Of a stretch of DNA of 64,000 bases, positions 2,295 to 19,344 are shown in pieces. The position numbers and the translations under genes were made by a program. Numbering within the stretch: position 1 is the stretch's first letter; each line of letters opens with the position of its first letter. The notes under the pieces were generated by a model. That model searched no databases, was not told the DNA's origin, and worked only from the letters and a program-made list of their open reading frames with translations. Source of the DNA: Actinotalea sp. Marseille-Q4924 (lineage in GTDB: Bacteria > Actinomycetota > Actinomycetes > Actinomycetales > Cellulomonadaceae); the NCBI RefSeq assembly GCF_916618755.1, contig NZ_CAKAKB010000004.1:1-64000 (forward strand), in the 5' to 3' direction.

Positions 2295-2552
2295 CTACAC
2301 CGGCAGCGCGGCCGAGGACGGCACCCACGCGTTCCACGGCGCCCGGTCCGCCAGGTCCTGCTGCACGCATACCCACCCCGGGGCGGTGGCGATGACGTAG
2401 AGCTGGACGCGCACCGTCCAGCCGCCGTACGTCCGCGTCCGGACGACGGCGCGCCGGGGCCGGTCCAGCATCCTCGTGGCACCCGGCGGGTCGCCGTGGT
2501 TGACGACCCACGAGGCGTAGGGCGCCGCGCTGCTCTGCATGGCGTCCAGCAT
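2295..2552 (-). CDS. conserved small protein of unknown function
   Basis: An 85-residue reading frame with non-random composition: SWVVNHGDPPGATRMLDR, then VQLYVIATAPGWVCVQQ and a tryptophan-rich tail ending WNAWVP. I do not recognise a named family. There is no signal peptide or membrane segment, and the beta-rich pattern suggests a compact fold. The start is uncertain: ATG 2552 was used, but GTG 2570 in the same frame is possible and neither has a clear ribosome site. It is convergent with the GntR gene, with only 12 bases between stops. Confidence 0.55.
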   Translation of the reverse strand: MLDAMQSSAAPYASWVVNHGDPPGATRMLDRPRRAVVRTRTYGGWTVRVQLYVIATAPGWVCVQQDLADRAPWNAWVPSSAALPV

Positions 2553-2614
2553 GCGCCCGGGCACCGACACCCGGCACCCCCGGGCACGGCGTCCCGGCGG
2601 TCGGCCTGCCGCCG

Positions 2615-2812
2615 TCAGGGGTTGAGATAGCTGCCCGGGTCGTCCTCGGTCGGGTTCGGCTGGGCGGGCATCGACCGCATCTCGTACGGGTCCTCCGCGT
2701 CGCCGGCCACGTCGTCGTCGGCCGCGGCGCGCGCCTCGTCGACCTCGGGGTCTCCCAGCGGGTCCGGGCTGTCGTCCGGGACGTCCTCGGGGACGCCGGT
2801 CTGCTCGGTCAT
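2615..2812 (-). CDS. small acidic protein of unknown function
   Basis: A 65-residue, strongly acidic, Pro/Asp/Glu-rich and probably disordered protein ending YLNP. The start at 2812 is well supported by GAGGAGG seven bases upstream. I know of no function; similar short acidic proteins are common in actinobacteria. Its start lies 83 bases from the first SARP-type direct repeat (2895-2912), so it could be co-regulated from the same control region. Confidence 0.7.
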   Translation of the reverse strand: MTEQTGVPEDVPDDSPDPLGDPEVDEARAAADDDVAGDAEDPYEMRSMPAQPNPTEDDPGSYLNP

Positions 2813-2894
2813 CAGGTCCTCCTCGGCTCGTGGCGTCGTCGTCGGCGCCCGTGCTCCCGACCGTAGGTCGACCGCTCCGACCCTGCACCCGCAG

Positions 2895-2912
2895 GCGTTG
2901 CAGCGGCGTTGC
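2895..2912 (+). promoter_or_regulatory. direct-repeat operator, candidate SARP binding site 1
   Basis: GCGTTGC occurs twice (2895-2901 and 2906-2912), with starts exactly 11 bp apart. This is one helical turn, the layout known for SARP/AfsR regulators. The site ends 86 bases before the oxidoreductase start at 2999. A near-identical site with the same spacing sits at 7839-7856, 85 bases before the secreted-protein gene. A SARP gene lies between the two. Confidence 0.65.
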
Positions 2913-2998
2913 GACGCCGTGCGCGGCGCCCCGCGAGGTCCCTCCGGCCGGGACGCTCGACACGTCACCCGGTCCCCCTCGCACAGGAGCAGCTCGCC

Positions 2999-4429
2999 AT
3001 GACCCTCAGCCCCGCCACCCTCAGCCGCCCCCGCACCGTCGGCACCGTCGGACGCACCGACGTCGTGACGGCAGTGGCAGCCCTCCGCGGCGCGCTGCCC
3101 GGCGCCGTGCACGCCCCCGGCGACGCCGCCTACGACGCCCTCGTCACACCGTGGAACCTGGCCGTCACCCTGGCCCCGGCCGTCGTGGTCGCCCCGACCA
3201 CCGGGCAGGAGGTGGCGCTCGTCGTCCGCACGGCGGCCGCGTACGGACTGAGCGTGGGCGTGCAGTGCACCGGTCACGGTGCGGACGGTGCCGCCCGGCC
3301 CGACGTCCTCGTCTCGACCCGCCGGCTCGACGAGCTCGCGGTCGACCCGGCAGCGGCGACGGCGCGCGTCGGCGCCGGCCTCACCTGGGCGCCCGTCGTG
3401 CAGGCGGCCGCGGCGCACGGCCTCCTCCCGGTGACCGGCTCGTCGACGGGCGTCGGCGTCGTCGGCTTCCTCACCGGGGGCGGGGTCGGTCCGTTCGCCC
3501 GCACGGACGGGCTCGCGGCGGACCGGGTGCGTGCCCTCGAGGTCGTCACCGGTGACGGCGAGCTGCGTCGCGTGACGCCCACGCAGCACCCGGATCTCTT
3601 CCGGGTGCTCCGCGGGGGCAAGGGCGCGGCCGGCATCGTCACCGCGGTCGAGCTGGACCTGGTCCGCCGCTCCCACTTCTACGGTGGCGCCCTCTACCTG
3701 GACGGTGCGCACGCGGCCCAGGTCGTGCACGCGTGGCGACGGTGGGCGGCCGGGCTGCCGGAGGAGGCGACGACCTCCGTCGCCCTCCTGCAGCTGCCCG
3801 AGCTGCCGACCGTGCCACCGCCGCTGGCCGGGCGCCTGTCGGTGTCCCTGCGGTTCGCGTGGACCGGGACCCCGGCCGACGGCGAGAGGTGGCTGCGGCC
3901 GATGCGCGAGGTGGCGACCGTGCTCCTCGACGACGTCGCGCTCAAGCCGGTGACCGCTCTCGACTCGATCCACGCGGACCCGCAGGACCCGATGCCGGGG
4001 CTCGAGCGCGGGCTCCTCCTCCGTGAGCTGACCGCCGAGGCCGTGGACGCGCTCCTGGCGGTCGCCGGCCCCGGCTCCGGCTCGCCGCAGGTGGTCGTGG
4101 AGCTGCGGCACCTCGGCGGGGCGCTCGCCAGGGAGGGAGCCCACCCGTCGGCCTTCGACCACCGCCACGCGGTCTGCAGCGTCCTGACCGTCGGGATCGC
4201 GATGGACCCGGCCGTCGCCGGGCACGCCGAGACGGTCCGCGGCGCGCTCGCACCGTGGGAGGACGGCGGGGTGTGGCCGAACTTCGGGCCCGCTCACGAC
4301 GACGCCTCGGCTCGCCGCGCGTACACCCCGAGCACCCTGCGTGCTCTCGCTGCCGCCGTCGCGGACCACGACCCCGACGGGGTGCTGGCCGGCGGGCGGT
4401 ACCTGCGTGCGCTCCCCGCCGTGCCGTGA
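2999..4429 (+). CDS. FAD-binding (BBE-like, PCMH-type) oxidoreductase
   Basis: A 476-residue flavoprotein oxidase or dehydrogenase of the berberine-bridge/FAD_binding_4 class. Residues about 55-235 form the PCMH FAD domain: VVVAPTTGQEVALVVRTAA, then VQCTGHGADGA (the His is the position that often carries covalent FAD), then GSSTGVGVVGFLTGGGVG. The C-terminal berberine-bridge part contains VWPNFG. No signal peptide is seen, so it is probably cytoplasmic. The start is ATG 2999 behind CAGGAGC. It is translationally coupled to the next gene (GTGA overlap) and is followed by a SARP regulator. The substrate is unknown; relatives oxidise sugars, alcohols or specialised metabolites. Confidence 0.85.
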   Translation: MTLSPATLSRPRTVGTVGRTDVVTAVAALRGALPGAVHAPGDAAYDALVTPWNLAVTLAPAVVVAPTTGQEVALVVRTAAAYGLSVGVQCTGHGADGAARPDVLVSTRRLDELAVDPAAATARVGAGLTWAPVVQAAAAHGLLPVTGSSTGVGVVGFLTGGGVGPFARTDGLAADRVRALEVVTGDGELRRVTPTQHPDLFRVLRGGKGAAGIVTAVELDLVRRSHFYGGALYLDGAHAAQVVHAWRRWAAGLPEEATTSVALLQLPELPTVPPPLAGRLSVSLRFAWTGTPADGERWLRPMREVATVLLDDVALKPVTALDSIHADPQDPMPGLERGLLLRELTAEAVDALLAVAGPGSGSPQVVVELRHLGGALAREGAHPSAFDHRHAVCSVLTVGIAMDPAVAGHAETVRGALAPWEDGGVWPNFGPAHDDASARRAYTPSTLRALAAAVADHDPDGVLAGGRYLRALPAVP

Positions 4430-4845
4430 GCGGACCCGGCCCCCGCCTGCGCACGGCCGACGGCGCACGCGACGGCGCGACCGCCGTGGTGGCGCTCCTC
4501 GTCGAGTGCCTCGACGCGGCGCGCGCGGCTGCCCGGCAGGAGCCCCGTTCCGCCGACCGCCTCCGGGCGGCCGGCGAGCGGCTCGACGGGGCCCTCGCGG
4601 CGCTGCCCGCGCTGGCCGCCGACGCGCGCGACCGGGCCGCCGACCTCGTCGTCGGCCTGTCCGCCGCGGGGGTCGCGCCGGCGGAGCGGGACGGCATGGC
4701 CGTGGAGCTGCTGGGGGTGCTCGGGGAGGTGTCCGCGGCCCTGCGGGCCCCGGCCGTGCGCGGGCCGGCTCCGAAACCGCCGCCCGGGTCGGCGTCCGGG
4801 GCGCCGCCGGGGTCTTGGCAGCGGGGTGGGGCAGCGCCACACTGA
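4426..4845 (+). CDS. small alanine-rich helical protein, coupled to the oxidoreductase
   Basis: A 139-residue protein rich in Ala, Arg, Glu and Leu with regular amphipathic helices (VVALLVECLDAARAAAR, then LDGALAALPALAADARDRAA) and a Pro/Gly tail. The start GTG 4426 overlaps the stop of the oxidoreductase (GTGA), indicating translational coupling. I do not recognise the family. Its position in the operon suggests it works with the oxidoreductase or the downstream regulator; this is inference. Confidence 0.6.
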   Translation: MSGPGPRLRTADGARDGATAVVALLVECLDAARAAARQEPRSADRLRAAGERLDGALAALPALAADARDRAADLVVGLSAAGVAPAERDGMAVELLGVLGEVSAALRAPAVRGPAPKPPPGSASGAPPGSWQRGGAAPH

Positions 4846-4904
4846 GCCCGTCGCACCGTGTCCAGCGCGGAGGGCGCGCGGCCGGGGCCCGGGCAGGAGT
4901 GGGC

Positions 4905-7796
4905 GTGAGCAGCACCGTCAGCACCGTCGGGATCGACCTGCTGGGCCCTGTCCGCGTCGTCGTCGACGGCCGACCGGTGGAGCTCGGCGGCCCCAAGCCG
5001 CGCGCCGTCGTCGCGGCGCTCGCCCTGGCCGCCGGTCGACCCGTGAGCGGTGAGGAGCTGGAGCGCGCGGTCTGGGGGGAGGACCCGCCGCCGAGCGCCG
5101 GCGGCACCCTGCGGGCCTACCTCTCCCGCCTCCGCGCGGTGCTGCCCGACGGGACGATCCTGCGCGCCGGCCCCGGTTGGTGCCTCGCGGTGCCACGGGT
5201 CCAGGTCGACGCGGTGCGCGTCGAGGAGCTGCTGAGCCTGGCCGCGCGGTCCGACGACGGCGAACGCCGGGGGCTGCTCGAGGACGCCGCGGCCCTGGTG
5301 ACGGGCGAGCCGCTCACCGGGCTCGGCGACCTGCCGGTCGTGCACCAGCACCGCGACCGCCTCGCCGGCCTCGCGGCCGACGTGCAGGAGGCGCTCCTGG
5401 ACCTGCGGCTGACGGCGGGGGAGCACCGCGAGGTGGTCTCACCGGCGACGGCCCTGGTGGACGACCACCCCCACCGCGAGGGTCCCGTGCGGCTCCTGGC
5501 GCTCGCCCTGGCTCGGAGCGGGCGGCACGGCGAGGCGCTCGCCGCCCTCGACGCGTTCCGGGTCCGCCTGGCAGACGACCTGGGCCTGGACCCGTCTCCG
5601 GAGCTCGCGGACCTGCGGCAGGGCCTCGTCGTGCACGACCCTTCGGTGCTGCGCACGACGCGAGGGCCCGCCACCGAGGACGGCCCTCGTCGCCCCGCCG
5701 TCCCCCTGCCGCTCACCTCGTTCGTGGGGCGCGAGCAGGACGTCGCCGCCGTCCACGCCGCCCTCGGGACGTCGCGAGCCGTGACGCTGGTCGGCCCGGG
5801 CGGGTGCGGGAAGACGCGCCTCGCGCTGGAGGCGCTGCGCCGGCTCGGCCGTGAGGACCTGGACGGGCCGTGGACGGTCGAGCTGGGCCACGTCGCCGAG
5901 CCCGGGCGGGTCGTCGACACGGTCGCCCAGGTGCTGTCCGTCTCTACGGCCGAGCGCGGCGACGCGCGGGCCGTCGCGGACGCCGTCCGCGGTCGCCGGA
6001 TCCTGCTGGTGCTCGACAACTGCGAGCACGTCGTCGCCGAGGTCGCGGACCTCGTCGCCTTCCTCCTGCGGTCCTGCGCAGGGCTGCAGGTGCTCTCCAC
6101 GAGCCGGGAGGCGCTCGGCATCGACGGCGAGTGCGTGCTGCCCGTCCAGCCGCTGCGCTGCGGGCGGCCGGGGCGCCCGGACGAGGCCGAGGCCCTGTTC
6201 GCCGAGCGCGCCTCGAGCACCGAGCCGAGCTTCGTCCTCGACGGGAGCACGACGGGCACGGTGAGCCGCCTGGTGCGTGCGCTGGACGGGATCCCGCTGG
6301 CCCTCGAGCTGGCGGCCGCCCGGCTGGCGGTCATGGGGCTGGACGACCTCGTCGCGGTGCTCGACGACCGGTTCGCCGTCCTGGAGGGCGGCTCGCGCTC
6401 GGCCCTGCCCCACCAGCGCACGCTCGCCACGGCGGTGGAGTGGAGCTACGACCTGCTCGACGAGGAGGAGCGCCGCCTGTTCACGGTCGCGTCCTTCTTC
6501 GACGGTCCCTTCACCCTGCCCGCGCTGCGCGGGCTCGCCGAGGCCGAGGTGAGCCGGCCGGTCCTGGGTGTGCTCGCGTCGCTCACCGCGAAGTCGATGG
6601 TGCAGGTGGACCGGTCCACCGACGCGAGGGCCAGCAGGTCCTACCGGCTGCTGGAGACCCTCCGTGTCTTCGGCCGGCAGCGGACGGAGGCGGCACTGGC
6701 ACAGCGCCTGGCGGTGCGCCACGTCGAGCTCTTCGCGAGCGACGCGGCCGACGCGTACCACGGGCTGCGCGGGCCGGAGGCGAAGAGCTGGCTCGCACGC
6801 CTCGACCTGGTGCAGCCGGACATGCGCGCGGCGCTGCGGGCCGCGGTGGACCACGGTGACCGGTCCTCGGCCCTGCGGCTCGTCGGCGGGCTGTCGATGT
6901 ACTGGTTCCACCGCGGGCACCTCCAGGAGGGGCTGTCCTGGGCGGAGGCGGTGCGTGCGCTGCCGGGGGAGTCCGACGAGGTGACGGAGGCGCGGGCCGC
7001 GCTCGGCTCGGCGCTGCTGGCGTACGGGCGTGGCGAGGCGTCGAACGTGGACTCACGGTTCCTGTCCGACCTCGGTCGCGCCGCCGCGAGCACGGACGAC
7101 CCGAGCACGGCCGCCGTCGCCGCCGTCTACGCCGGCTACTTCCTGGCCGCGTTCGGCGACCTGGAGCAGGCGGGCGGGCACTTCCACCACGCCGGTGAGC
7201 TGCTCGCCACGGGAGCCGTGGAGCCGTGGGCCGCCACGGAGGTCCTCTTCGCGCAAGGACAGCTCCTGCGGGCGCAGGGCCGGCCGGCCGAGGCGCTCGC
7301 GGCGCTCGACGCCGCGTCGTCCGCCGGCGCAGCGTGCGGGCACGCGTGGGCGGCGGGCAGTGCCCGGTACATCGCCGCCAAGCTGCGCGTGGACCAGGCG
7401 CAGGGCGGTCATGCGCTGCTGCTCATCGCGCAGACGCTGCCCTCCACCCTCGACCTCGGGATCCACACGTCGACGCTCGCCCTGCTGCACGTGGCCGCGG
7501 CAGCGACCGCGCTGCTGGAACGGCACGTCGAGGCGGCGGCGCTGCTGGGCACGGTGGACGCCTGGGGGGAGCGGCTCGGCTACCACCCCTCGCGGATGGA
7601 CCCCGTCGACGCCGCGCGGCACCGGACCCTCGTCCAGCAGGCCCTCACGGCGGAGGAGTTCGACGAGGCGTGGCGGAGCGGGCGCAGCACGACGCTCGCC
7701 GCGGCAGCACGGGGCGTCATGGCGCTCGCTGAGGGCGCGAGCGCGTCCGGGCCGGCCAGGCGCCGGGCCGTCCGCGGGTCGGCGCCTCCCGCCTGA
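4905..7796 (+). CDS. AfsR/SARP-family regulator with BTAD and NB-ARC ATPase domains
   Basis: A 963-residue multidomain activator. Residues about 8-85 are an OmpR-like winged helix (LLGPVRVVVDGRPVELGGPK, ending in LRAYLSRLR). About 95-230 is the bacterial transcriptional activation domain. About 265-530 is an NB-ARC/STAND ATPase with Walker A GPGGCGKT (297-304) and Walker B LLVLD (Asp371). The rest is helical and TPR-like. Start GTG 4905 has AGGAG six bases upstream. It lies 59 bases after the helical-protein gene, probably in the same operon. SARPs bind direct heptamer repeats 11 bp apart next to the -35 region, and two such sites (2895, 7839) flank this gene, so it probably activates its own operon and the secreted-protein gene. 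No biosynthetic cluster for a metabolite is visible. Confidence 0.9.
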   Translation: MSSTVSTVGIDLLGPVRVVVDGRPVELGGPKPRAVVAALALAAGRPVSGEELERAVWGEDPPPSAGGTLRAYLSRLRAVLPDGTILRAGPGWCLAVPRVQVDAVRVEELLSLAARSDDGERRGLLEDAAALVTGEPLTGLGDLPVVHQHRDRLAGLAADVQEALLDLRLTAGEHREVVSPATALVDDHPHREGPVRLLALALARSGRHGEALAALDAFRVRLADDLGLDPSPELADLRQGLVVHDPSVLRTTRGPATEDGPRRPAVPLPLTSFVGREQDVAAVHAALGTSRAVTLVGPGGCGKTRLALEALRRLGREDLDGPWTVELGHVAEPGRVVDTVAQVLSVSTAERGDARAVADAVRGRRILLVLDNCEHVVAEVADLVAFLLRSCAGLQVLSTSREALGIDGECVLPVQPLRCGRPGRPDEAEALFAERASSTEPSFVLDGSTTGTVSRLVRALDGIPLALELAAARLAVMGLDDLVAVLDDRFAVLEGGSRSALPHQRTLATAVEWSYDLLDEEERRLFTVASFFDGPFTLPALRGLAEAEVSRPVLGVLASLTAKSMVQVDRSTDARASRSYRLLETLRVFGRQRTEAALAQRLAVRHVELFASDAADAYHGLRGPEAKSWLARLDLVQPDMRAALRAAVDHGDRSSALRLVGGLSMYWFHRGHLQEGLSWAEAVRALPGESDEVTEARAALGSALLAYGRGEASNVDSRFLSDLGRAAASTDDPSTAAVAAVYAGYFLAAFGDLEQAGGHFHHAGELLATGAVEPWAATEVLFAQGQLLRAQGRPAEALAALDAASSAGAACGHAWAAGSARYIAAKLRVDQAQGGHALLLIAQTLPSTLDLGIHTSTLALLHVAAAATALLERHVEAAALLGTVDAWGERLGYHPSRMDPVDAARHRTLVQQALTAEEFDEAWRSGRSTTLAAAARGVMALAEGASASGPARRRAVRGSAPPA

Positions 7797-7838
7797 CCGG
7801 TGCCCTGACCGCGGCGGCACCAGGCCCGCTGCCAGGGG

Positions 7839-7856
7839 GCGTTGCAGGGGCGTTGC
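7839..7856 (+). promoter_or_regulatory. direct-repeat operator, candidate SARP binding site 2
   Basis: GCGTTGC is repeated at 7839-7845 and 7850-7856, starts 11 bp apart, with spacer AGGG (AGCG at site 1). The site ends 85 bases before ATG 7942. The match in sequence, spacing and distance to the start codon makes chance unlikely and links the secreted-protein gene to the SARP operon. Confidence 0.65.
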
Positions 7857-7941
7857 ACCGCGTCGCGCGTCGCTCCGCGGCCCGGGTGACACGGGGATCG
7901 TCGTGCCGTACCGCAGGACCGACATCCCAGGAGAGATCACC

Positions 7942-8469
7942 ATGACCGCACGACTCGTCCCGTCCGCCGTCCTCGCCGTCGCCCTCGCCGCCACCGGCGC
8001 CGGTGCGGCGTCCGCCCACGGCCCGTCCGAGGGTGGGGCGCACACGGCCGACTTCCCCGGCCGGGTCGCCGCCCAGGCCCGCGCGGCGACCGCCGCCTTC
8101 CACGACCCGCAGGCCGCCATCGCGGCCGGCTACCTGCCCAGCTCGCACTGCCTGCCGGGCATGGGCCAGCACTGGGTGAACCCGGCGAACCTCATGGACG
8201 GCGTCAACGACATCGCCAAGCCGGACGTCCTGCTGTACGAGCCCACGCCGGACGGCCCCCGCCTCGTGGGCGTCGAGTGGCTGCAGGTGGACGCCGACCA
8301 GGACACGACGACCGACGACGACCGCCCCTCCCTCGGCGGCGTCCCGTTCGACGGTCCGATGCTCGGGCACGAGCCCGGCATGCCCGTCCACTACGACCTG
8401 CACCTGTACGTCTGGGAGCACAACCCGCTGGGTCTGGCGGCGGTGCTCAACCCCAACGTCACCTGCTGA
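7942..8469 (+). CDS. secreted protein of an uncharacterised actinobacterial family
   Basis: A 175-residue exported protein. Residues 1-25 are a Sec signal peptide with cleavage probably after ASA. The mature part begins with His-rich AHGPSEGGAH and carries the family signature GYLPSSHCLPGMGQHWVNP. Further on are VEWLQVDADQD, a DGPMLGHEPGMPVHYDLH segment, WEHNP, and a final NPNVTC. The many conserved His residues and two Cys suggest metal binding or a disulfide; I know no established function. The start has CCAGGAGAG upstream. Its promoter carries the SARP-type repeat, so it is probably co-expressed with the flavoprotein upstream, which raises the possibility of a shared redox or metal-related role (inference). 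Confidence 0.8.
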   Translation: MTARLVPSAVLAVALAATGAGAASAHGPSEGGAHTADFPGRVAAQARAATAAFHDPQAAIAAGYLPSSHCLPGMGQHWVNPANLMDGVNDIAKPDVLLYEPTPDGPRLVGVEWLQVDADQDTTTDDDRPSLGGVPFDGPMLGHEPGMPVHYDLHLYVWEHNPLGLAAVLNPNVTC

Positions 8470-8485
8470 CGCGCGAGGCGCCCCC

Positions 8486-8523
8486 GGGGCGTCCGGCCGG
8501 TGCTCCGCACCGCCGGGCGCCCC
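8486..8523. terminator. bidirectional hairpin between convergent genes
   Basis: GGGGCG, CCGGC and GGTGC pair with GCACC, GCCGG and CGCCCC across two single-base bulges and a three-base loop. It sits between the stops of the convergent genes ending at 8469 and 8589. Confidence 0.5.
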
Positions 8524-8588
8524 GACGCGTCGGTGGGGGCCGACGCGGCTGGGCGAGCCGGCCCGGCGTCCTGCGACGCTGGGCGCCC

Positions 8589-9212
8589 TCAGCCGCGGAC
8601 CGAGGTCGGCTCCCCGGGCCCCATGTCGAGGCGGAACGGCGGGTACTGGTCCGTCATGAGCGAGACGTAGACGCCCACCCGGTACAGCCAGCGGTTCAGC
8701 CCGACCAGGAGGTCGTGCAGCCCGCCGGGGTACCGCCCGCTGAAGAGCAGCACGACGCCCACGACGAGCACGAGGACGCCGATGAGTCCGGTCTGGTTCT
8801 GGTGCTGGACGACGCCCTCGGCGTCCTCCCACCGCACCTGCGGGCCGGTGAGCAGGGCGACCACGACGTAGTGGGGGATCGCCAGCAGCCACCACTTGAC
8901 CAGGGCCAGCCCACGCGAGAGCTGCTCGGGGTAGGCGACGTCGAGACGTGCGGGGTACTCGGGCACGTCCTGGAGCGTGAAGGGCGGGTACACGTCGGTG
9001 CCGAGCGCGCCGTACCCGTAGTACGCCACCCGCCACGTCCACCGCAGGACGCCCACCTGGTACTCGAAGATGCCCCGCGGGTACCGCCCCGTCACCACGA
9101 CGGTGACGAGGACGACGGGCCACAGCAGGACGTAGCCCAGCCACAGGAACGCCAGCACGACGGCGTGCGGGATGAGCAGGAACCACTTGACGAGCCACAT
9201 CCACCGCGACAC
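8589..9212 (-). CDS. DUF4389 membrane protein, N-terminus probably frameshifted
   Basis: A DUF4389 integral membrane protein with two similar halves: each has a WLVKW or LVKWWL start, a hydrophobic helix pair and a GRYPRG or GRYPGG motif followed by a WxWRV- or WLYRV-type segment. The longest open frame starts at GTG 9212, inside the usual family N-terminus. A much better start lies at ATG 9312 (GGAGGACCTC directly upstream), but that frame is one base off. Removing one G from the run at 9242-9246 joins it to PLRLEGFPPPAVSRW, which matches the family pattern just before the first helix. The intact protein would be about 240 residues. Either the gene is mutated or the base call in the homopolymer is wrong. 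Confidence 0.75.
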   Translation of the reverse strand: MSRWMWLVKWFLLIPHAVVLAFLWLGYVLLWPVVLVTVVVTGRYPRGIFEYQVGVLRWTWRVAYYGYGALGTDVYPPFTLQDVPEYPARLDVAYPEQLSRGLALVKWWLLAIPHYVVVALLTGPQVRWEDAEGVVQHQNQTGLIGVLVLVVGVVLLFSGRYPGGLHDLLVGLNRWLYRVGVYVSLMTDQYPPFRLDMGPGEPTSVRG

Positions 9213-9554: not shown

Positions 9555-10079
9555 TCAGGAGTCTGCGGCGTGCCCGTCCGTTGCGGGCGGCGCGTCGTGG
9601 CGGCGGTAGACGTCGCTCATCCGGCCGGTGGGGTCCAGGCGCTGGAGCACCGCGTCCGTGATCGCCGTCAGCTGCTGGATCTGCTCGGGTGTCAGCGCGT
9701 CCACGACGTGCTCGCGCACCGTGGCCACGTGGCCCGGTGCCGACGCCTGCACCGTGCGCCACCCCTCCGCGGTGAGGCGCGCGTTGGTGGCGCGCGCGTC
9801 CTCCGGGCAGGGGAACCGCTCCACCAGCCCGCGCTCCTCGAGCCGGCGCACCACGTGGGACAGGCGCGGCAGGGTCGCGTTGGTCTGCGCGGCCAGCGCG
9901 GTCATGCGCAGCGTGTGCTCGGGGGCCTCGGACAGCATGGCGAGCACGTAGTACTCGAAGTTCGTCAGCTGTGCGTCGCGGCGCAGCTGCTGGTCCAGCC
10001 GGCCCGGGAGCAGCTCGAGCACCGCCGCCAGCCGCACCCATGCCGCGAGCTCCTCGCGCGTCAGCCACCTCGTCTCCAT
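9555..10079 (-). CDS. MarR-family transcriptional regulator
   Basis: A 174-residue MarR protein. After helix 1, the winged-helix core reads LTNFEYYVLAMLSEAPEHTL, then LAAQTNATLPRLSHVVRRLE and the wing LVERFPCPEDARATNARLT, with C-terminal dimer helices. The start ATG 10079 has no ribosome site but has CACACT six bases upstream, fitting a leaderless transcript. It is divergent from an NADP-binding reductase gene, and two palindromes in the gap are probable operators. The ligand is unknown; such MarR/reductase pairs often respond to electrophiles or oxidants. Confidence 0.88.
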   Translation of the reverse strand: METRWLTREELAAWVRLAAVLELLPGRLDQQLRRDAQLTNFEYYVLAMLSEAPEHTLRMTALAAQTNATLPRLSHVVRRLEERGLVERFPCPEDARATNARLTAEGWRTVQASAPGHVATVREHVVDALTPEQIQQLTAITDAVLQRLDPTGRMSDVYRRHDAPPATDGHAADS

Positions 10080-18195: not shown

Positions 18196-19344
18196 GTGAC
18201 CGACCCCGACTGGAACCCTCGTGGCCCGCGCGTCCGCCGGGACGCCCGCTCCGCCTACGACGAGCTGCGGGCGCGGTGCCCCGTCGCGCACGGCGCGGAC
18301 GGCTCCTGGACGTTCCTGTCCCACGCCGACGTCGCGCGCGCAGCGCTCGACCACGAGACGTTCAGCAACGCCGTGTCACGCCACCTCCAGGTGCCGAACG
18401 GCCTCGACGGGCCGACGCACACCGCGTACCGGGCCGTCGTCGAGCGCTACTTCACGCCGCAGCGCATGGCGGCCCTCGAGCCGCGGCTCCACGAGGTCGC
18501 CGTCGCGCTCGTCGAGGAGGTGGACGTGCCCGGACGTGTCGACGTCGTCCGGCTCGGCTCCCTCTTCGCCGTCCGCGCGCAGAGCGCCTGGCTGGGGTGG
18601 CCGGCCGCGCTCGAGCCGGTCCTGCTCGCGTGGATGGCCGATCACCGCGCGGCGGCCCGGTCGGGCGACCGCGCGCGCACGGGGGAGGTGGCCGGGAGGT
18701 TCACCGCGATCATCCGCGGCCTCACCGACGCCCGACGTGCCGCCGGCGACGACGCCCCCGACGACGTGACGACCGAGCTCGTCCGCGACCGCGTCGACGG
18801 CCGTCCGCTGACCGACGACGAGATCGTCTCGGTCCTGCGGAACTGGACGGGGGGCGACCTCGGGTCGATGGCCCTCGCGGCGGGCGTCGTGGTGACCTAC
18901 CTCGCCGACCACCCGGACCTGCAGGGCCGGGTGCGTGAGGGCGTGTCGGACCGTGAGCTCGACGCGGTGCTCGACGAGGTCCTGCGCATCGACGACCCGT
19001 TCGTCAGCAACCGGCGCGTCACGACCCGGCCCGTCACGGTCGGTGGGCGCGAGATCGGGCCCGGTGCCCGGGTGGTCCTGCACTGGACCGCCGCGAACCG
19101 TGACCCGCGCGCGTTCGGCGACCCCGACGCGTTCGCCCCGGAGGCCAACGCGCCGTACAACCTCGTGTGGGGCATCGGGAAGCACGTCTGCCCCGGCCGG
19201 CCGCTCGCGACGCTCGAGCTGCGCGTGCTCGTCAGGGCCCTCCTCGTGGCGACCAGGGCCATCGAGCCCGACCCCGATCGACCCCGCTTGCGTGAGCTGC
19301 CGCCCGTCGGCGGGTTCTCCGCGGCTCCGGTCGTCCTCCGGTGA
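18196..19344 (+). CDS. cytochrome P450
   Basis: A 382-residue soluble bacterial P450 (monooxygenase). The heme-ligand loop is WGIGKHVCPGRPLA (Cys332), the ExxR motif lies in LDEVLRIDDPF, and WTGGDLGSMALAAGVVV is the I-helix region. The I-helix lacks the usual acid-alcohol pair (AGxET replaced by GGDLGS), as seen in some peroxygenase-like or unusual P450s. No ferredoxin or reductase gene is adjacent. Start GTG 18196. The neighbouring upstream TetR gene is broken. The substrate cannot be told. Confidence 0.9.
   Translation: MTDPDWNPRGPRVRRDARSAYDELRARCPVAHGADGSWTFLSHADVARAALDHETFSNAVSRHLQVPNGLDGPTHTAYRAVVERYFTPQRMAALEPRLHEVAVALVEEVDVPGRVDVVRLGSLFAVRAQSAWLGWPAALEPVLLAWMADHRAAARSGDRARTGEVAGRFTAIIRGLTDARRAAGDDAPDDVTTELVRDRVDGRPLTDDEIVSVLRNWTGGDLGSMALAAGVVVTYLADHPDLQGRVREGVSDRELDAVLDEVLRIDDPFVSNRRVTTRPVTVGGREIGPGARVVLHWTAANRDPRAFGDPDAFAPEANAPYNLVWGIGKHVCPGRPLATLELRVLVRALLVATRAIEPDPDRPRLRELPPVGGFSAAPVVLR

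Follow-up and report, generated by a model that had tools for sequence, protein, structure and literature searches.

Does a large SARP regulator act on its own neighbours through two identical repeats that flank its gene? The locus raises this question in a window of 64,000 nucleotides, the whole stretch of DNA that was analysed. The motif GCGTTGC-N4-GCGTTGC lies there upstream of an FAD-linked oxidase gene and again upstream of a gene for a predicted secreted protein, named SEC below, with the SARP gene in between (Table 1). The initial annotation proposed that the SARP controls both genes through these 11-bp-spaced heptamers.

Table 1. Features of the SARP locus, numbered from the first base of the window
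Feature	Coordinates	Strand	Description
Acidic ORF, 65 aa	2615..2812	-	Divergent from site 1; possible extra SARP target, by position alone
Site 1	2895..2912	+	GCGTTGC-AGCG-GCGTTGC; putative SARP box; minus strand reads GCAACGC twice
GACGCT	2952..2957	+	Sole NANNNT from site 1 to the FAD start (+39); weak candidate -10
FAD-linked oxidase, 476 aa	2999..4429	+	PF01565 (FAD_binding_4), 86.9 bits
139-aa ORF	4426..4845	+	GTG overlaps the FAD stop codon; status uncertain
Large SARP regulator, 963 aa	4905..7796	+	Trans_reg_C winged helix, BTAD, NB-ARC/STAND ATPase
Site 2	7839..7856	+	GCGTTGC-AGGG-GCGTTGC; putative SARP box
GATCGT	7896..7901	+	Sole NANNNT from site 2 to the SEC start (+39); weak candidate -10
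SEC, 175 aa	7942..8469	+	N-terminus resembling a signal peptide (by eye); without a Pfam family

Two heptamer pairs and their promoters

Both 18-mers claimed in the initial annotation are present on the plus strand, and the gaps of 86 and 85 bases that it gave between the sites and the ATG codons of the FAD oxidase (2999) and SEC (7942) are exact. The exact pattern GCGTTGC-N4-GCGTTGC has only two copies in the whole genome (3.64 Mb, six contigs), both at the SARP locus, and its reversed control has none; a dinucleotide model of the window predicts 0.054 exact heptamer pairs in 3.64 Mb. Tolerance of up to two mismatches yields 56 genome sites, the two exact ones and 54 with two mismatches, no copy with a single mismatch being among them. 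Since the reversed control gives more (75), the mismatched copies are background. Period-11 exact 7-mers are by themselves common in the GC-rich window, with 14 clusters per 64 kb. The unusual part is the occurrence of an identical heptamer pair two times, at matching positions, with one SARP gene between. The repeat observation is thus confirmed and its origin by chance is unlikely.

The likeness of the two promoters extends beyond the box: just downstream, 16 of 23 bases are identical, a level matched by a fraction of 0.00045 of 20,000 random pairs of window 23-mers. The two exact sites have the arrangement expected of SARP targets, whose promoters lie close to direct repeats with a spacing of 11 or 22 bp. 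The promoter geometry is less typical. According to PMC10936776, the 3' repeat of SARP sites lies 8 bp from the -10 element and the upstream repeat of afsS overlaps the -35. This 8-bp spacing is found at neither window site: no canonical -10 was detected, the coding strand has no NANNNT nearer than +39 at either site, and a sigma-70/terminator scan of 2500-8700 returned nothing. This lowers the claim of a typical SARP promoter geometry, not the membership of the regulator in its protein family, and the two hexamers of Table 1 are candidate -10 elements only. The box also departs from the PimR-type operator, which has CGGCAAG heptamers on the coding strand; in the window the heptamer is GCGTTGC, CAAG is absent from the coding strand and a CAAC core is found on the minus strand only. 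The PimR studies describe binding to CGGCAAG repeats with 4-bp spacers (PMC3367932, PMC5930380) and an operator without -35 overlap (PMC3367932), the latter a precedent for operators set apart from the -35.

The regulator, the oxidase and SEC

The gene between the sites had been described as a SARP with BTAD and STAND ATPase domains, and Pfam indeed finds Trans_reg_C, BTAD and NB-ARC. The N-terminal scores, 28.5 bits for PF00486 (cut-off 26.2) and 85.3 bits for PF03704 (cut-off 22.1), place it in the SARP family. Its best PDB matches are 8k60, 8jke and 8hvr, and it resembles the AfsR and EmbR structures; against the AfsR equivalog NF053617 it scores 178 bits for a cut-off of 1430. Its presumed recognition helix, TLRAYLSRLRAVL, carries an arginine where most aligned relatives have a glutamine (e.g. 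SLQVAVSRLRR). This segment would be the helix that reads the DNA, and the arginine may shift DNA specificity. At 1e-60, matches to this SARP occur in 28 of 200 family genomes, its own included. The closest foreign match, in L083, shares 39% identity across residues 10-941; the SARPs of the gene sets described below are 33-37% identical and are not clear orthologues. Among foreign SARP-match loci taken with 1.5-kb flanks, an FAD homologue adjoins in 1 of 29 (L016, which is also L070). To note, in L083 (10810-13460, minus strand) a CAAG-type box precedes the gene of a large signal-peptide-like protein, with this closest foreign match near by; by eye, the box and a NANNNT end 65 bases before the ATG of that gene and ~3 kb from the SARP gene, a sighting kept outside every count.

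The nearest PDB chain of the FAD oxidase is 9r43 (2e-93), named mitomycin radical oxidase; residues 40-462 align to its residues 11-434, nearly full length. EncM structures match at ~1e-42, and the nearest NCBIfam model, BagK/FevA1 (NF041226), gives 373.5 bits, short of its 800-bit cut-off. With FAD_binding_4 and near full-length homology, the oxidase belongs to the superfamily of McrA, EncM and BBE. McrA oxidises hydroquinone back to quinone (PMC9570651); 9r43 bears the mitomycin radical oxidase name, and the sources used do not state that it is McrA itself. The 139-aa ORF that follows has no Pfam or NCBIfam match and was left unpicked by the analysis's own gene caller. A second FAD oxidase of the same genome (contig C6, 217654-218973) is 52% identical to that of the window; its 14-kb surroundings contain neither a SARP match nor an exact period-11 repeat.

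An alignment of 68 SEC sequences shows invariant His77, Glu112 and His154 and nearly invariant Cys70 and Cys175. The SEC profile finds no match among PDB sequences up to E 10, and in the Foldseek fold search no match reaches E 0.001. A distant fold lead is TTHB210 of Thermus thermophilus (3vg8), with a Z that may reflect only a common arrangement. Elsewhere in the window, a cytochrome P450 gene is located at 18196-19344, and Pfam, run on 18 proteins of the window, found no biosynthetic core enzyme; this is a subset of the genes and not a full cluster search, and the absence of an antibiotic-type cluster stated in the initial annotation is covered to that extent.

Recurrence of the gene set and of the repeats

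At 1e-10, an SEC-like gene is present in 2 of the 200 genomes of the family; at 1e-15, the phylum gives 21 of 396, and at 1e-20, the genus of N. pinisoli gives 20 of 196. A GTDB contig scan that depends on two short peptide patterns yields 77 loci. Several SEC-like genes are linked to SARP and FAD genes in varying order. Cellulomonas carbonis (G002; L100 is the same contig) presents SARP-FAD-SEC, all in one direction; N. pinisoli and N. pini, SEC-SARP-FAD; G644, SEC-FAD-SARP. The three genes are linked at two loci in N. pocheonensis, and G723 holds two linked sets, SARP-FAD-SEC and SARP-MMPL-SEC. N. pinisoli, N. pini and G723 also have SARP-FAD-FAD runs, and transporters stand inside two relatives' sets (MMPL in L237, MFS in L147). 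In Micromonospora echinofusca a FAD-SEC pair lies on a contig of 4.3 kb, where a SARP is not visible. The relatives' SARPs that were scanned contain BTAD and AAA_16. FAD homologues as such are widespread (123 of 200 family genomes at 1e-40), and at 15 of 17 FAD loci from the family (L066-L082) a SARP match is absent from the fetched stretch. No description of the SARP-FAD-SEC set was found in titles and abstracts of the open-licence papers searched.

SEC also has a second context. At five scanned loci (L118, L137, L144, L151, L194) it stands beside a regulator and a gene of 83-100 aa resembling SCO4226 (PF14026), a protein that binds nickel. The regulator there is of LuxR-type LAL, NB-ARC or SARP kind, or an alpha/beta-hydrolase-GerE protein; ten further loci (L238-L241, L244-L249) have similar layouts as judged by gene size. 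Separately, a tiny ORF with a CYWDHRRAGWVCP stretch was seen by eye between SEC and SARP in L087 (~9558-9693) and likewise in L088; it is conserved in N. pinisoli and N. pini.

The expectation that the repeat would be found upstream of orthologues in related genomes holds for the arrangement, which recurs, and fails for the letters: the literal GCGTTGC pair is absent from 17 of the 18 other same-genus genomes, C. carbonis included. Literal conservation was rejected as a candidate, the exact pattern occurring, among 19 same-genus genomes with the source included, only there and in G009. Among the ORFs inspected by eye in the 3-kb locus of the G009 repeat, none resembles SARP, FAD or SEC, and that genome has its FAD match ~340 kb away. 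In C. carbonis the box is GCTCCAG twice plus GCACCAG, 11 bp apart and without a CAAG core; in the other sets described above, the box is a CAAG-type array with between two and four units.

For the count of repeats, 20 target regions were hand-chosen: those of FAD or SEC genes standing first in a SARP-linked unit, of the L237 MMPL gene and of the Micromonospora FAD gene. Period-11 exact heptamers are present in 12 of these 20, which are not independent as they include the window pair (itself found through its repeat) and the sister species N. pinisoli and N. pini, versus 20 of 430 control regions, among which are regions next to SARP genes, some of them bearing what look like real arrays. Without the window pair the count is 10 of 18. 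Outside the 20 fell the SEC genes of L092, L118 and L125 with the L125 FAD gene, none having an exact heptamer, and five second genes, of which one, the L235 FAD gene, has one. When second genes and box-less loci are included, 13 of 29 SARP-linked FAD/SEC genes carry an exact period-11 heptamer, that of the L235 FAD gene not being CAAG-like. Periods from 7 to 22 other than 11 give exact 7-mers in at most 3 of 20 targets (period 7: 3 of 20); period 12 is somewhat raised, with 11 of 20 at a match of at least 6/7 (control 38%).

Forward NYAAS arrays are found at 16 of 20 targets, and a NANNNT lies exactly 10 bp past the array in 14 of these 16, versus 8 of 270 single NYAAS words in controls. Automated calls, which leave the window out, find an array at 12 of 25 SARP-linked FAD/SEC genes and at 2 of 119 unlinked ones, one of these two being L086, on a contig too short to show whether a SARP is linked. 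Gene starts came here from the analysis's own simple caller, with approximate amino-acid frequency tables; L100 was removed because it duplicates L066, and regions shorter than 120 bases were dropped. The 13 misses include some second genes and some wrongly called starts: the L088 SEC was miscalled and the L070 FAD split, both scored as misses, and the array of the L202 SEC is on the other strand. L092, L118 and L125 are plain misses; their SEC genes, with a SARP-like gene adjoining, lack both the array and any exact period-11 heptamer. No array precedes the SARP-less SEC genes of the Nocardioides group (L233, L234, L236).

A composite pattern of box plus -10 yields 24 sites, versus 4 for its reversed control, in five genomes selected for holding SARP-linked sets. 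A SARP gene lies within ~5 kb of 18 of the 24 and at 10 and 16 kb from two more; the stretch fetched contains none for the other four. Of the 14 sites new to the known sets, 8 are near a SARP gene, and no SARP match occurs at 17 control loci. At five loci of the Nocardioides group (L294, L295, L297, L298, L299), a SARP gene and a CAAG box plus -10 are found near genes that the profiles assign to neither FAD nor SEC; these are possible further local SARP regulons.

A putative local regulon and its relation to known systems

Taken together, the repeats are probably operators of the adjacent SARP, which would activate the FAD unit and SEC as a small local unit. The control proposed in the initial annotation is supported by the comparison, in which SARP-linked FAD/SEC genes often have the repeats and unlinked ones almost never, but not by the canonical geometry. 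Confidence was slightly lowered because three box-less SARP-linked loci had fallen outside the hand-picked set. We infer that the winged-helix/BTAD part of the SARP would bind each heptamer pair side by side and activate the FAD-oxidase gene, probably together with the 139-aa ORF and the downstream SARP gene itself, a positive feedback, and would activate SEC from site 2. The STAND ATPase part may gate activation on some intracellular signal. The oxidase, McrA-like by homology alone, might oxidise a reduced quinone- or phenol-like compound, and SEC is predicted to be a secreted, probably disulphide-bearing protein.

Other origins and uses of the sites have to be weighed. The SARP may bind in the inverted sense (GCAACGC, minus strand), site 1 then driving the divergent acidic ORF and site 2 acting as a repressor site or roadblock facing the SARP gene. 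Read on the minus strand, both sites do match the NYAAS array and come near the CAA[G/C] core of relatives, and at site 1 this strand has CAGGGT 9 bases past the box (11 past CAAC, against 10 in most relatives). At site 2, however, the 80 minus-strand bases examined hold no NANNNT, and no gene runs leftward from there for the site to drive; the matching distances of 85 and 86 bases and the common +39 NANNNT point to the rightward genes, and inverted binding seems unlikely. Equally improbable is that the sites serve another regulator, or are a duplicated promoter segment to which no SARP binds: the likeness beyond the box is what a duplicated promoter would show, and the canonical SARP geometry is missing, but a period of 11 is the SARP spacing, a SARP gene lies between the sites, and many SARP-linked relatives have period-11 boxes. 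A mere accident of GC-rich DNA, for which the 14 period-11 clusters of the window might plead, is very hard to reconcile with two pairs at matching positions beside a SARP where 0.054 are expected, and with the comparative enrichment.

A further account keeps the regulation of the main reading and differs from it only in the role of the targets, so that the odds of the two overlap: the FAD enzyme, of BagK/FevA1 or EncM kind, would serve in biosynthesis, and the locus would belong to a natural-product pathway, or be what is left of one, rather than form a detoxification unit. We regard this as a genuine possibility, short of likely. The best NCBIfam match, the EncM match and the P450 gene of the window speak for it; the name of the closest PDB chain and the lack of a core enzyme among the 18 proteins scanned speak against it, as do the MFS or MMPL transporters in two relatives' sets, although biosynthetic clusters hold exporters too. 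Because of the 9r43 match, the hydroquinone oxidation by McrA and these same transporters, we favour a small redox or detoxification regulon, less firmly than the operator reading itself.

The locus may, tentatively, exemplify widespread one-locus SARP regulons for redox or chemical defence in actinobacteria, each with a large SARP acting on one or two neighbouring units of McrA-like oxidase, SEC and sometimes an MFS/MMPL exporter, and with a heptamer that drifts with its SARP and so keeps neighbouring regulons insulated. The window would then be the case in which heptamer and promoter distance have moved furthest. SARPs are mostly studied as activators of antibiotic clusters and used in hunting such clusters, an approach that would need qualifying if a SARP regulon recurs where antibiotic clusters are absent. 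Such a regulon would also offer a minimal two-promoter system for the study of SARP specificity, and an entry point to the SEC family, found beside large signal-sensing regulators in several phyla.

A SARP without an antibiotic cluster, which looked new in the initial annotation, already has a precedent in EmbR, a regulator of SARP type that does not belong to such a cluster. AfsR is a SARP with STAND and TPR domains. The window resembles the AfsR/afsS system by the combination of a SARP domain with an NB-ARC-type ATPase and by two 11-bp direct repeats, and differs from it in that the nearest NANNNT is 39 bp away and that the AfsR equivalog score is far below cut-off. With the SARP-LAL regulators PimR, SanG and PolR it shares heptamers with 4-bp spacers, and the CAAG core of these systems is common to most relatives' boxes; its own box is GCGTTGC, its SARP is of the NB-ARC type, and its targets are not known antibiotic pathway genes. 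As to the McrA/EncM/BBE-like oxidases, the window enzyme has their FAD_binding_4 domain and a near full-length match to 9r43, but it is a homologue by sequence, and a mitomycin-type cluster is absent among the genes scanned.
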